Made by a program: the position numbers and the translations under genes. Below the pieces are notes generated by a model, which was not told where the DNA came from, made no database searches, and saw only the letters and a program-made list of their open reading frames with translations. DNA of 28,620 bases from Clostridia bacterium (GTDB lineage Bacteria; Bacillota_A; Clostridia; Christensenellales; Aristaeellaceae). Position 1 is the first letter of the stretch, and each line of letters opens with the position of its first letter. Below are positions 14,878-19,863 of the stretch, in pieces. Location of the stretch: contig JAFWQM010000058.1 in NCBI GenBank assembly GCA_017509065.1, positions 1 through 28,620 of the forward strand. The letters are read 5' to 3'.

Positions 14878-16809
14878 TCACTTTCTCAGGGGATATACCA
14901 GCGCCGGATTCCAGACTGCGAAGGGACCGGGCATAACCTGGCCCGCCCCTCTTTCCTCCCCCGCAAAATCGCACAGAACGCCGTCCGCCGCGGGTACCTG
15001 CCGCACTGACAGCGGATCGTGGAGCAGCTGAAGCCTGCGCAGCTGCGCGGCAGAGCCGAAGGGGGCGTCTTTGCTGACCCGGAAGGCAACAGTCCGCCTC
15101 TCCTCATCCAGTTCAATGTCAAACCAGGCGTTCTGCCCGCTTAGGTCGAAGCCGAAGAACTCCTGCCAGGCGGGAAGATTCAGGCAGGCCTCCGGCTCGG
15201 GGTACATGACCCTGAGATAGCCCCCCTGCATCCGCACATACAGATTGCCGTCCGCATGGTTGTCCCGGGTGGGAAAGTCAATGGCCGCCTCGCCGCATGC
15301 ATAGAAGATATTGTTGAAAACCTTTGCCTCCCGGGAGGTGCCGCCGCGTTCCAACCCGTGCATCCGGAAGCCCACCGGCTTGGCATAATACCCGCTGTGG
15401 CGGCAGCGGCCGATCAGGTTGTGGGCGATCACCAGCCGGTCCGTGCCCTCGCCGTAAACCCCGTAGCCGTTTACCGCCTCCGTCTCCCGCAGCTTATACC
15501 AGCCGGAGGAGCCCGGCTCCTGGGGCACCTTCGATGGATCAAAGCGGCCTTCCACATTCCAGATGATGTTGTTGTCGATGAGATTCACTCCGTCCCGTGT
15601 GCACTCGATGAAAATCGCTTCCCGCTGCTCAATTCCGTTCAGGAAGAGATTGCCAGTAATCCGGTTGTTTTCATTTCCGCAGTCCAGCCACAGATGATCG
15701 GCGCGGAGGGTATTGCGGAACACATTGCGGCGGATCAGGGCGTTCACGCTGTTGTGCAGCTTGATTGCGCCGGCTTCCCAGGACAACTCCATCTTCTGCC
15801 AGCCGGTCCCTTCAATGAGATTGTCTTCAATCAGCATTTCCTCCGCGAACATGCCGGCAATGCCGCAGACGCCCGCATCGCGGATCCTGCAGTTCCGGAT
15901 GACGCTGCAGCCGATGATCTCCCCCTCCCGGTGAGTGTGGTGCCAGCACTCGTTGCCCACGTCGATTGCCACGCCGTTGGACCAGTTGACCTCGCAGTCC
16001 TCAATGATCCAGTGGTGACCGCGGAAGGCGGAGACAGCGCCCCGTTGGGGAACCGGCGCGCCGGTGGCCGCGTGCTCAAGGATCAGCCCTTTGACCCGGA
16101 TATAGTTCAGGAAGGGCTTGTCCGGCGCAAAGCACTGCTCCCGCACTGTCACCTCAATCCGGTGCTCCCTCGGGTCCGCATCCCCGGCCAGACGGAAATG
16201 CACCTTCTGTCCGTTGGCTTCCACCCAGTAGGTGTTGTCCCGCTGCCCCATCAGGTAGTACAGCGGCACCTGGGTCAGCGGCTTTCCGTCGCAGAACACG
16301 CAGCCGCGCCGGTTCAGGTAGGTGGTCATATCCGTCTTGTCATACTCGATGAACAGCCGGTCATGGAGAATGTTCACCGCGCAGAAGGGGTTATAGCCCC
16401 GGAACAGATCCGGGTCCAGGCAGTATTCCCAGATACGCACGCTCTTCGGGTCTACCCCCCGGAGCATCCAGCCCTCGCTGGGGATGAACTTCCCAACCTC
16501 CTCCGAGGCCCGGATCACCACATCCCCGTCACCATAGGCCTCATAGGAAATCAGGTGCGCAGGGTCCGTGCCGCCCTGGGCCGGTTTGACGCACTCGCGG
16601 TACAGGCCCGCATGGATACGGACCCGGGTGCCCGGCTCCGCCTCCATGGCGGCGCGGCCGATGGTTCGGAAAGGGGCAGCCTCGCTGCCGTCGCTGTCGT
16701 CACACCCTTCCGGGCTGACAAACAGCTCCCTCTCCCAGACCGGCTCCGTCTCCCAGAAATGATAGCTGCTGCCATCGGGCAGAATCGCCGAAAGATCCCG
16801 CTGTTTCAT
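14878..16809 (-). CDS. Right-handed parallel beta-helix protein (DUF1565-like), cytoplasmic
   Basis: The frame is open upstream, but GGAGGA lies 9 bases before ATG 16809, giving 643 residues. An N-terminal DUF1565-like segment (ELFVSPEGCDDSDGSEAAPFRTIGRAA, then GTRVRIHAGLYRECV) leads into a parallel beta-helix. Its short strands repeat as N-x-I/F units: VIRNCRIRDAG, LIEDNLIEGT, ALIRRNVFRNT, NRITGNLFLNG, LIDNNIIWN, LVIAHNLIGRC and AKVFNNIFYACG. Such folds bind or cleave polysaccharides. There is no signal peptide, so it probably acts on imported oligosaccharide or is exported by another route. It has its own promoter and terminator. No catalytic residues can be assigned with confidence. Confidence 0.82.
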   Translation of the reverse strand: MKQRDLSAILPDGSSYHFWETEPVWERELFVSPEGCDDSDGSEAAPFRTIGRAAMEAEPGTRVRIHAGLYRECVKPAQGGTDPAHLISYEAYGDGDVVIRASEEVGKFIPSEGWMLRGVDPKSVRIWEYCLDPDLFRGYNPFCAVNILHDRLFIEYDKTDMTTYLNRRGCVFCDGKPLTQVPLYYLMGQRDNTYWVEANGQKVHFRLAGDADPREHRIEVTVREQCFAPDKPFLNYIRVKGLILEHAATGAPVPQRGAVSAFRGHHWIIEDCEVNWSNGVAIDVGNECWHHTHREGEIIGCSVIRNCRIRDAGVCGIAGMFAEEMLIEDNLIEGTGWQKMELSWEAGAIKLHNSVNALIRRNVFRNTLRADHLWLDCGNENNRITGNLFLNGIEQREAIFIECTRDGVNLIDNNIIWNVEGRFDPSKVPQEPGSSGWYKLRETEAVNGYGVYGEGTDRLVIAHNLIGRCRHSGYYAKPVGFRMHGLERGGTSREAKVFNNIFYACGEAAIDFPTRDNHADGNLYVRMQGGYLRVMYPEPEACLNLPAWQEFFGFDLSGQNAWFDIELDEERRTVAFRVSKDAPFGSAAQLRRLQLLHDPLSVRQVPAADGVLCDFAGEERGAGQVMPGPFAVWNPALVYPLRK

Positions 16810-16878
16810 GCTCTTGTCTCCTCCATAAAATGCTTCTGGCTGTCCGTTAAGGCATTGCCAAAGGCGGCTTTCTCCGCC

Positions 16879-16908
16879 ATTATACCGTAATTTGTACGGA
16901 AATAACAA
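16879..16908 (-). promoter_or_regulatory. Promoter of the beta-helix gene with an operator-like palindrome in its spacer
   Basis: On the minus strand TTGTTA (16908-16903), an 18-base spacer and TATAAT (16884-16879). The spacer contains the perfect inverted repeat CCGTA-N5-TACGG (16885-16899), well placed for repression. Immediately downstream the transcript would fold GGCGG/CCGCC into a 5' hairpin (about 16863-16878). Confidence 0.7.
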
Positions 16909-16999
16909 TCCTTTGAAATTATTACAGAGAAGCTCTCTGCATAATCCGCTCATCTATCCTGTAGCCTGCCTCCTTCTGCCGTTTAACAAACCTCGATTT

Positions 17000-17980
17000 T
17001 CAGTCTGATGGCCGTTCTTCTTTCGTATTTTCCAGCGCTTGAAACAGCATCGGGAACACATCGTCAGTGTGGGCGGGAGCATTTGCTTTGGGCCCTGGGT
17101 AGAAATCCTTTTTTGAACAGCCGGCCCGTCCGCCGCCCGCGCAGGCACAGGCGCAGGCACAGGCACAGGAAGCGCAGGCGCAGGAGGACCGGGCGCAGCC
17201 GCCTGACCGGGTATGGGTATGGATAATCACAGGATGTCCGCCGCCAAAGCCGGAGCCGCCTCGGTAATTGTCGTTTCTTCCCGCAATCACCACGATGACG
17301 ATCACGCCGATGATGGTCAGGGAAAGCATCGCAAAGACGATGGCAAGCGTTTCACTTTCTTTATCCACTTTTGCGTTGGTGGACTGCTGATTTTCATCCA
17401 ACTGCATGAAATAGTTCCTGGGATAAACAACCTCCGTCCGAAGCCGCTCACCTTTCCGCAGGACGGTCTTCCAAAACAGATAGCCGTCCTCTGTCTTGTC
17501 AGCGTTGGACGATTGCACGCCCGCTGCGTTCCAGCGGATCACGGCGTTTTTCACTTCGATCTTGTCAAACCAGCCGGGGGTGAGGGAGAAGCGCACCGTA
17601 TCGCCATCCAGCACGAACAGATAAGACTGATGCAGGGAAAAATCGAAGGACACCGTTTCTCCCGCGTAATATTTCCGGTCAAAGGTGATTTTCACATAGG
17701 AGCCGCCGTCGGACAGGTATCCGATCTTTTTGATGTTATGAGAAATAGCGGCGAAGCTGTCGGCGTGCTGATTGGGAATGCCGATCTTCACCCATTCCAG
17801 GGGGCCTTCGGCTTTATCGTCCAGCACCAGCCAATCCACGTGATAGGTCAGGTCCGCCGTGCCATCCTCCCTCAATTGCACGCTGACGCCGTAATTCTGG
17901 ATCTCGTCCAGGTCCTTTGCGAAAGCGGAGAGGGGCAGCAGGCAAAGCAGCAGCGCGAACAAAACGAATATCTTTTTCAT
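17000..17980 (-). CDS. Membrane protein with extracellular DUF2207-like domain and nine-cysteine tail
   Basis: The 326-residue product has a signal peptide (1-21, LLPLSAFA), a beta-rich extracytoplasmic domain (22-210) resembling the N-terminal domain of DUF2207 proteins, one TM helix (about 211-234) and a predicted cytosolic tail. The tail has Gly-rich GGSGFGGGHP, a His/Thr stretch, then nine Cys between 262 and 288 (262, 267, 269, 272, 274, 276, 278, 280, 288), including CACACACAC, and ends GGGRAGCSKKDFY plus 32 residues. Its ATG overlaps the radical SAM stop codon by one base (TGATG), with AAGGAGG 7 bases upstream, so translation is coupled. I infer that the tail is the substrate of the radical SAM enzyme or binds metal; neither is proven. 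Confidence 0.82.
   Translation of the reverse strand: MKKIFVLFALLLCLLPLSAFAKDLDEIQNYGVSVQLREDGTADLTYHVDWLVLDDKAEGPLEWVKIGIPNQHADSFAAISHNIKKIGYLSDGGSYVKITFDRKYYAGETVSFDFSLHQSYLFVLDGDTVRFSLTPGWFDKIEVKNAVIRWNAAGVQSSNADKTEDGYLFWKTVLRKGERLRTEVVYPRNYFMQLDENQQSTNAKVDKESETLAIVFAMLSLTIIGVIVIVVIAGRNDNYRGGSGFGGGHPVIIHTHTRSGGCARSSCACASCACACACACAGGGRAGCSKKDFYPGPKANAPAHTDDVFPMLFQALENTKEERPSD
17135..17187. repeat. Short degenerate GGCACA/GGCGCA tandem repeat inside the Cys-tail coding region
   Basis: Near-perfect 6-base units encode alternating Ala-Cys on the minus strand. Codons alternate between TGC and TGT and between GCC, GCG and GCT, so the protein pattern rather than the DNA repeat seems to be conserved. 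Such a tract can change length by slippage in steps of one Cys-Ala pair. Confidence 0.6.
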
Positions 17981-19341
17981 CAGCAGCCCTCCTTTTTCAG
18001 CGGGCATTCATGGGTCATTTTTGCGGAATAGTCACGGATCGCCGCGGCGGCGGGGCTGTTCCAGATACGCTTCCAATCATCCTTGAGCAGATTGCCCAAG
18101 GGCTTGTCCGACAGCCAGCTCTGGCAGGGCACCACATCGCCGTTGGGAGCCACAGCCATATTGGAAAGGCAGGCTCCGCAGGAGGGCACCATGAGGCCCA
18201 GCTCCCGCAGGGTTTCCTCCTTCACCCAGCCGGGGGACGTGAAGGAAAGCTCCATTTCGTTTTCGGCGCAGTACGCGGCGGCGGCGGACAGGGTATCGGT
18301 GAGCTGCGCTTCGGTCAGCTGCGTGGCCCGGCTGTCCTCGGCCCTGGCGTTGCCGGTGAGGATCAGGCTGGAGCAGGATACATAGCCCACACCCAGATCC
18401 CGCAGCACCTTCAGCGTGTCCACGTATTCCCCGGCGTTCAGGCTGCACAGGGGCGTGTTCACGCTGACGCTGAGGCCCGCCTTCAGTGCGTTGTTCAGGC
18501 CCTCCATGGTTTTATGATGATTCTGCGCGCCCACCAGGATGTTGTGGGCGGCTTCCTCGGCGGAATACAGGGTGATTTGGGTGCTGTCCAGGCTGGCGTC
18601 GTACAAGGCGCGGACCAGGTCCGCCGTCAGGTTCACGCCGTTGGTGTTCAGCCGGGTCACGAACCATTGGGCGTATTCCACCAGCTCCACCAGATCGCTG
18701 CGCAGGGTGGGCTCCCCGCCCGTGAAGGTCAGCTGGGGAATGTTGGCTTTTTTGCAGGCGTCGATCACCCGCTTCCATTCCGCTGTGGTCAGTTCTTTCA
18801 CTTCCGCTTCGGGCTGGCCGGCAGCGTAGCAATGCAGGCATTTTTGATTGCAGTGCCAGTGGCCATCCTTCGTCATGGCGGACACCATCAGATCCATCCG
18901 ATGAGGCGCGGTCATGTAAGGCGCGTATTCACCCAGGGACAGATACCCGATCTCCGTTTCCGGCTTCCGTCCGTATGCCACGTCCATCAGCGCTCTCAGC
19001 ATGGTTTCCAGATCCCTGTGGATGTTTTCACGGGGCGTTCTGGGAAACACGTGGCAGGTATCGCTTACCGTATGCTCCACGATCCTGTCCATGTCCTCCT
19101 GGGCCAGGGGCTGATCCGGAAGCTGATTCACCTGCGTGATGAAATTATTCAGCAGCACCGTCCAGCTTGGATTCACCGGAATGATGTCCTGCCCGTTGAG
19201 AATGACCACAGACGGCTCCTTCATAGGATGCTTAGGGGGCACCAGATGGATGCGCACCACACCGGGACCGCGTGGATTCAGCGTAGTATGCGATACACTG
19301 GTGAAATTGTTTTTCATGTATTTCCATTCCCGTAAATTCAT
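17980..19341 (-). CDS. Radical SAM/SPASM enzyme, probable peptide or protein modifier
   Basis: The 453-residue product starts at ATG 19341, with AGGAGG 5 bases upstream, although the frame is open further. It has an N-terminal region of about 160 residues containing a PqqD-like stretch (VVILNGQDIIPVNPSWTVLL, 45-64) that might be a recognition domain. The radical SAM core follows, with Cys164, Cys168 and Cys171 (CNQKCLHC) and GGEP (208-211). A C-terminal SPASM/twitch domain has Cys388, 391 and 406 in CGACLSNMAVAPNGDVVPC, then LGNLL, IW, and HEC and GC at the end (446, 453). SPASM enzymes use extra Fe-S clusters to modify peptides or proteins, often forming Cys thioethers. It overlaps the Cys-tail gene by one base, making that protein the likely target. 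Confidence 0.88.
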   Translation of the reverse strand: MNLREWKYMKNNFTSVSHTTLNPRGPGVVRIHLVPPKHPMKEPSVVILNGQDIIPVNPSWTVLLNNFITQVNQLPDQPLAQEDMDRIVEHTVSDTCHVFPRTPRENIHRDLETMLRALMDVAYGRKPETEIGYLSLGEYAPYMTAPHRMDLMVSAMTKDGHWHCNQKCLHCYAAGQPEAEVKELTTAEWKRVIDACKKANIPQLTFTGGEPTLRSDLVELVEYAQWFVTRLNTNGVNLTADLVRALYDASLDSTQITLYSAEEAAHNILVGAQNHHKTMEGLNNALKAGLSVSVNTPLCSLNAGEYVDTLKVLRDLGVGYVSCSSLILTGNARAEDSRATQLTEAQLTDTLSAAAAYCAENEMELSFTSPGWVKEETLRELGLMVPSCGACLSNMAVAPNGDVVPCQSWLSDKPLGNLLKDDWKRIWNSPAAAAIRDYSAKMTHECPLKKEGC

Positions 19342-19536: not shown

Positions 19537-19863
19537 TCATACTAACTTTAAAAATATCAAATATCCATTTACGTCCAGTGATGCGTTTAATAGTATCTTG
19601 GTAAGTGAGCAGATAGTATCACATAGGCGATCAACGACTTTACCAAGCGTGATAAAAACCTCATTACGGAAACCATCGGTACGGATTTCGCGCCAAACCT
19701 GCTCAATCGGATTCATTTCAGGGGTATAAGGAGGAATATACTGGAGATGGATATTGTTTGGCACGGATAAAGTCTTCGATTTATGCCAGGGAGCGCCATC
19801 GCAAATCAGCAGAACTTGATCATCGGTATACTGTTCCGAGAGGGCCTTGAGAAAGGTTTTCAT
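19537..19863 (-). pseudogene. IS630-family transposase C-terminal remnant
   Basis: The 108-residue frame contains VLLICDGAPWHKSK (second catalytic Asp) and PPYTPEMNPIEQVWREIR (catalytic Glu), the C-terminal half of IS630/DDE_3 transposases. The upstream half with the first Asp and the helix-turn-helix is absent: only about 80 bases separate the frame from a terminator-like hairpin. It is therefore an inactive fragment, although some IS630 elements split the transposase into two frames and the missing half might have been lost by deletion. Confidence 0.8.

Follow-up and report, generated by a model that had tools for sequence, protein, structure and literature searches.

What does a radical S-adenosylmethionine (SAM) enzyme act on when its gene is coupled to that of a membrane protein with a cysteine-rich tail? 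The question is raised by a 28,620-nucleotide stretch of DNA from a Clostridia bacterium (assembly GCA_017509065.1, contig JAFWQM010000058.1; hereafter the window), which encodes on its reverse strand an enzyme of the radical SAM/SPASM type and, directly after it, a single-pass membrane protein, referred to here as the carrier. The two genes probably form a maturase/substrate module, in which the enzyme modifies the carrier's own tail, most likely by introducing Cys thioether crosslinks. Both genes lie where an earlier note on this DNA, made from the sequence alone, had placed them, and the carrier ATG overlaps the enzyme stop codon as it had reported, with one base in common; AGGAGG is found seven bases ahead of the ATG. 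The features of the pair are as follows, all on the reverse strand.

17980..19341, reverse strand: radical SAM/SPASM-type maturase, 453 aa (open reading frame (ORF) and Pfam domains)
18976..19293, reverse strand: RRE-like (PqqD-like) peptide-binding domain at the N-terminus of the enzyme, residues 17-122 (predicted structure)
18829..18852, reverse strand: CxxxCxxC motif, Cys164, 168 and 171, for the radical SAM cluster (invariant in 26/26 loci)
18373..18375, reverse strand: Cys323, a barrel Cys at a strand end and a candidate for the active site (invariant in 26/26 loci)
18004..18180, reverse strand: SPASM/Twitch Cys set 388, 391, 406 and 446, for one auxiliary cluster (invariant in 26/26 loci)
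17978..17982, reverse strand: TGATG, enzyme stop overlapping carrier start (sequence)
17000..17980, reverse strand: carrier, 326-aa single-pass membrane protein (ORF)
17918..17980, reverse strand: signal peptide, approximately residues 1-21 (hydropathy; cleavage site by eye)
17375..17917, reverse strand: extracytoplasmic beta-sandwich domain, residues 22-202 (predicted)
17270..17359, reverse strand: transmembrane helix, approximately residues 208-237 (hydropathy, and a helix in the model)
17099..17197, reverse strand: Cys tail, residues 262-294 (CARSSCACASCACACACACAGGGRAGCSKKDFY), predicted substrate (sequence, conservation)

Co-occurrence of the Enzyme and the Tail

Profiles of the tail (A1) and of the enzyme (A2) were searched separately in the same genome samples. 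Among 293 genomes of the class of G001, the tail was found in nine and the enzyme in eight (E <= 1e-50), with all eight in common. The 113 genomes of the order of G215 yielded 14 with the tail and 14 with the enzyme, and the 247 of the order of G001 three with each (enzyme E <= 1e-30), the genomes being identical in both cases. Hypergeometric probabilities for the co-occurrence, which treat related genomes as independent, are 7e-15, 4e-18 and 4e-7 for the samples of 293, 113 and 247 genomes, respectively; the three samples are themselves not fully independent, as G001, G215 and some negative genomes occur in more than one. The earlier note would have been refuted by homologous tails that mostly occur away from such an enzyme, and the opposite was observed. 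The tail is present wherever the enzyme is, and the sole tail match without an enzyme, in G203, is marginal (E 3.8e-4, half of the profile covered, an internal stop); no ORF bearing tail or enzyme motifs was seen at that locus.

Over the three samples, 23 distinct genomes bear the enzyme. In 20 of them the tail sits next to the enzyme on a single contig, including G335 and G289, where the contig start cuts the carrier and the enzyme, respectively. The contig ends within the carrier, beside the enzyme, in G178 and G209, and in G284 (L067, 6660-9592) the start of the carrier lies beside the enzyme, with the tail-bearing part about 2 kb away behind opposite-strand ORFs. When the carrier served as the query, the enzyme was directly upstream in 8/8 genomes found. 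The nearest of these loci (82-88% identity) belong to metagenome-assembled genomes (MAGs) named Clostridia or Clostridiales, some of them from rumen or reticulum, and one Lachnospiraceae MAG has a carrier match at 45% identity; the loci L007 and L009 are on two contigs of the same genome. The enzyme gene comes first in the window's group, whereas the carrier gene precedes it in 14/14 genomes of the G215 sample.

Among the genomes searched, those with the tail have one each, except that G215 and G356 have two carriers in tandem; tail pieces lie on two contigs in G335, and the carrier is split over two contigs in G007. The view of the tail as a promiscuous tag on many carriers is thus unsupported, given one tail or tandem carriers per genome and forms with a zinc ribbon that cluster with the window type. 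L064 and L071 have a tandem pair of carriers ahead of a single enzyme gene. Neighbour clustering over 26 loci revealed nothing past the pair that is common to distant loci, and the next commonest neighbours are found at 4/26 loci (L064, L070, L071, and L076), which are apparently close relatives.

Conservation of the Tail

The tail was compared in 133 proteins, namely 120 listed of 1096 matches and 13/13 from a second search. It reads CACACAGGGRAGC in 118, CACACAGGGRVGC in 13 and CACACAGSGRAGC in one, and the repeat is lost in one, while CACACAGGGR[AV]GC is present in 131/133. Uninterrupted CA runs range from 3 to 5, and 16-45 residues follow the motif. Past the last Cys the proteins fall into two clades, with mostly (S/T)xKDFY in one and SERGYQVxxW in the other (the G619 tail ends KDFI), yet both clades keep the Cys and the Arg of the tail and almost every Gly.

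Selection was assessed in seven full genes, from the window and L001-L006; L007, cut by a contig end, and the divergent L008 were excluded. Pooled dN/dS (ratio of nonsynonymous to synonymous divergence) is 0.004 for the Cys tail, as compared with 0.062 for the linker, 0.102 for the ectodomain, 0.115 for the part after the tail, 0.229 for the signal peptide and 0.429 for the helix. Synonymous divergence within the tail (pS) is 0.50 in the same genes. The tail is therefore not merely a frozen DNA microsatellite, a repeat artefact that codon variation rules out, and it is its protein sequence that selection keeps, under extreme purifying selection.

Architecture of the Carrier

The carrier was described in the earlier note as a signal peptide, an ectodomain, one helix and a Cys tail, and hydropathy and the structure model agree. 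In the model, the ectodomain has a predicted local confidence (pLDDT) mostly >90 and the tail is disordered. The nine Cys of the tail are residues 262, 267, 269, 272, 274, 276, 278, 280, and 288, so that eight of the nine fall within 19 residues, and CACACACAC spans residues 272-280, again as first described. A hydrophobic N-terminal segment and a single helix were found in 123/132 tail proteins. The predicted topology has the beta-sandwich facing outwards and a cytosolic tail, and the latter is supported by homologues with a zinc-ribbon pattern, as this pattern sits between helix and tail in 27/27 carriers having one.

No NCBIfam family matches the carrier at E <= 1, and Pfam DUF2207 reaches 13.1 bits, under its cut-off of 24.4, hence the carrier is not assigned to that family. 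Ten relatives of the carrier were scanned as well; none reaches an NCBIfam cut-off, and one of the ten (P0042) reaches a Pfam cut-off, that of a zinc ribbon.

The Enzyme and Known Maturases

The enzyme exceeds the Pfam cut-offs for Radical_SAM (70.2 vs 29.5 bits) and for SPASM (40.6 vs 21.5 bits, residues 388-446). Its cysteines were compared across 26 homologous loci, representing 25 distinct places, as L008 and L075 are identical. Where the earlier note counted three sets of Fe-S cysteines, this comparison finds two conserved sets and the invariant barrel Cys323, which the model puts at the end of strand 320-323; Cys299 is replaced by Val in L067 and L078. By its cysteines the enzyme thus reads as having two cluster sets and is nearer to a Twitch-like protein with a single auxiliary site. 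At the N-terminus, the model predicts strands at 17-21, 29-34, 44-48 and 52-56, followed by helices at 58-71, 81-98 and 104-122. PqqD has no Pfam match to the enzyme at E <= 1 in a scan of the whole protein, and the enzyme is under the curated cut-off of every family among the 25 NCBIfam families listed of 66 matched. The SCIFF/ranthipeptide maturase model is not among these 25. The prokaryotic viperin model of PADLOC, for which no curated cut-off is given, matches at 54.3 bits, confined to the common radical SAM core (residues 163-308).

A structure search placed the fold closest to SkfB and SuiB, two maturases of ribosomally synthesized and post-translationally modified peptides (RiPPs), with the N-terminal side included: the alignments to SuiB and SkfB begin at their residues 3-6 and 12. 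SuiB and SkfB have an N-terminal RiPP recognition element (RRE), and SuiB and CteB have two auxiliary clusters and act on small precursor peptides (PMC6231123). The enzyme shares with SuiB and CteB the fold and the predicted N-terminal RRE, but has the Cys for one auxiliary cluster rather than two; for CteB the fold match is accompanied by a weak sequence match. SkfB, and with it the sactisynthases, is the best structural match and has in common the N-terminal RRE, the radical SAM and Twitch/SPASM build and a target bearing Cys. In contrast, its target is a small peptide, whereas the putative target here is a 326-aa membrane protein; identity is 19% across the structural alignment, and SkfB lacks Cys299 and Cys323 in a hidden Markov model alignment.

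Among the features of RiPP maturases, the enzyme has the CxxxCxxC motif, the C-terminal SPASM/Twitch Cys in a single set and, by predicted structure only, the N-terminal RRE. Instead of a small leader-core precursor, a membrane protein of approximately 300-430 aa is the only partner that distant loci have in common. Two annotated families come near in other ways. The ACGX-system family TIGR04340 has, judged from its name, a similar target with Cys/Ala/Gly-rich repeats, but the enzyme, at 51.5 bits where 400 are required, falls outside it. TIGR04133 (rSAM_w_lipo), a SPASM enzyme family named for a membrane-attached lipoprotein partner, is a precedent in annotation only, as the enzyme scores 83.6 bits vs 425 and has a single-pass, Cys-tailed partner. 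The SPASM enzymes anSME and QhpD have whole proteins as substrates, as is proposed here, but those substrates are enzymes with other motifs, unlike the carrier tail. No description of the enzyme-carrier pair was found among the matches listed from the open-licence literature, nor any paper there linking DUF2207 with radical SAM. The build of the enzyme is already known, while its dedicated pairing with a cytosolic tail that is a fixed part of a single-pass membrane protein is undescribed among the literature matches listed.

Proposed Mechanism and Alternatives

The tail is most simply taken as the substrate: only the carrier gene always accompanies the enzyme, the tail is its most conserved part and is predicted to be in the same compartment as the enzyme, and the enzyme is built like a peptide maturase. 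With the carrier embedded in the membrane in its predicted topology, the cytosolic enzyme would dock the tail by means of the RRE-like N-terminal domain, generate a 5'-deoxyadenosyl radical and place modifications on the CACACAGGGR[AV]GC segment, with the single auxiliary Fe-S cluster accepting the electron. Sactipeptides are arranged as a donor/acceptor hairpin, which the Cys-rich N-side and Gly-rich C-side halves of the tail resemble, and thioether links are hence the leading guess; the likeliest product would be a set of intramolecular thioethers joining Cys of the N-side half to positions in the Gly-rich half. The modified tail would remain on the carrier as a rigid element rich in Cys; a metal or redox function linked to the outer domain is plausible for it, and the whole might act as a sensor. 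The earlier suggestion that the target is a cytosolic membrane-protein tail, and not a free small peptide, is thus well supported: the genes are linked, the tail is conserved, its predicted topology fits and the enzyme has a SkfB/SuiB-like build. The crosslink chemistry, the metal or redox site and the sensor role that went with it are conjecture.

Several observations weigh against this reading. The tail core is not universal, as G284 has AVGGRVGC and the CA run is broken by Tyr in one of the two G215 copies. The conservation among the 133 tail proteins was partly selected for, since these were found by tail words, although neither the dN/dS set nor the enzyme search was affected by that selection. 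The acceptor residues are not decidable from sequence, and the reaction may differ from that of SkfB, given the Cys for one auxiliary cluster and the Cys299 and Cys323 that SkfB lacks. In G209 (L078, 7128-8345), the open frame of the enzyme begins inside the N-terminal domain, hence this copy holds one in-frame stop there and the pair may be decaying. Enzyme matches in G366, G339 and G335 were also flagged, with one stop each; in G366 and G339 no other stop was seen from the N-terminal motif onward, so that the flagged stop is probably the one that ends the gene, and in G335 two stops close to the end are likewise read as the gene end.

If the tail is modified, the chemistry could still be of another kind, such as epimerisation at Ala or Cys, sulfatase-type Cys oxidation, or the joining of the conserved Phe/Tyr through C-C or ether bonds, with Cys323 as a hydrogen donor or ligand. 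We consider this rather unlikely, as the aromatic positions are not universal and the second clade has ERGYQVxxW where the first has KDFY. It is less probable again that the tail is not modified at all, and instead binds a metal or Fe-S cluster as an electron or iron donor to the enzyme, or tethers it to the membrane. Obligate pairing would suit such a partner as well as a substrate, and CxC repeats readily bind metals, but the enzyme is built like peptide maturases and no other candidate substrate gene common to distant loci lies nearby. Finally, the tail could be a RiPP core that is cleaved from the carrier and released, as its position near the C-terminal end and the RiPP-like maturase might suggest. 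This would be surprising, since distant loci have no neighbour in common, and hence no common protease or exporter beside the pair, 16-45 residues follow the motif and the tail is predicted to be cytosolic.

Modification of a retained carrier tail, if true, would mean that RiPP-type radical SAM chemistry is used to make a permanent portion of a membrane protein or receptor instead of a peptide that is set free. For a radical SAM family that is uncharacterised, the substrate can be assigned with unusual firmness, owing to the exclusive pairing. More tentatively, and with somewhat greater doubt than confidence, the carriers might represent a class of transmembrane proteins in which a permanent cytosolic tail is crosslinked by a dedicated radical SAM enzyme, to serve as an encoded cofactor or a redox or metal reporter tied to an outer sensor domain. 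The short common core offers a compact peptide for a direct test of the reaction.

Genomic Context and Distribution

Immediately upstream of the enzyme gene, the window has a transposase-like ORF (19537-19863, reverse strand), by eye of the DDE type. The pair is followed by a gene for a 691-aa protein (14878-16953, reverse strand), a right-handed parallel beta-helix by eye, which has no relative among the other loci compared. A mobile or phage gene was considered and rejected: a plasmid search gave no match, and five stretches of viral contigs fitted a pattern, of which none was confirmed. The enzyme-carrier pair, with an enzyme that is 53.8% identical, does occur on one 7.4-kb scaffold, L086 (MT837216.1), which lacks annotation and is titled 'Bacteriophage sp.'; this scaffold is probably a bacterial contig. 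The pair is carried by scattered Clostridia-type genomes (8/293 in the class sample). A tail protein of the ERGLQV type (P0248) is encoded on a 223-kb contig named Candidatus Shapirobacteria, and if the binning of this contig is right, the tail extends beyond Clostridia.
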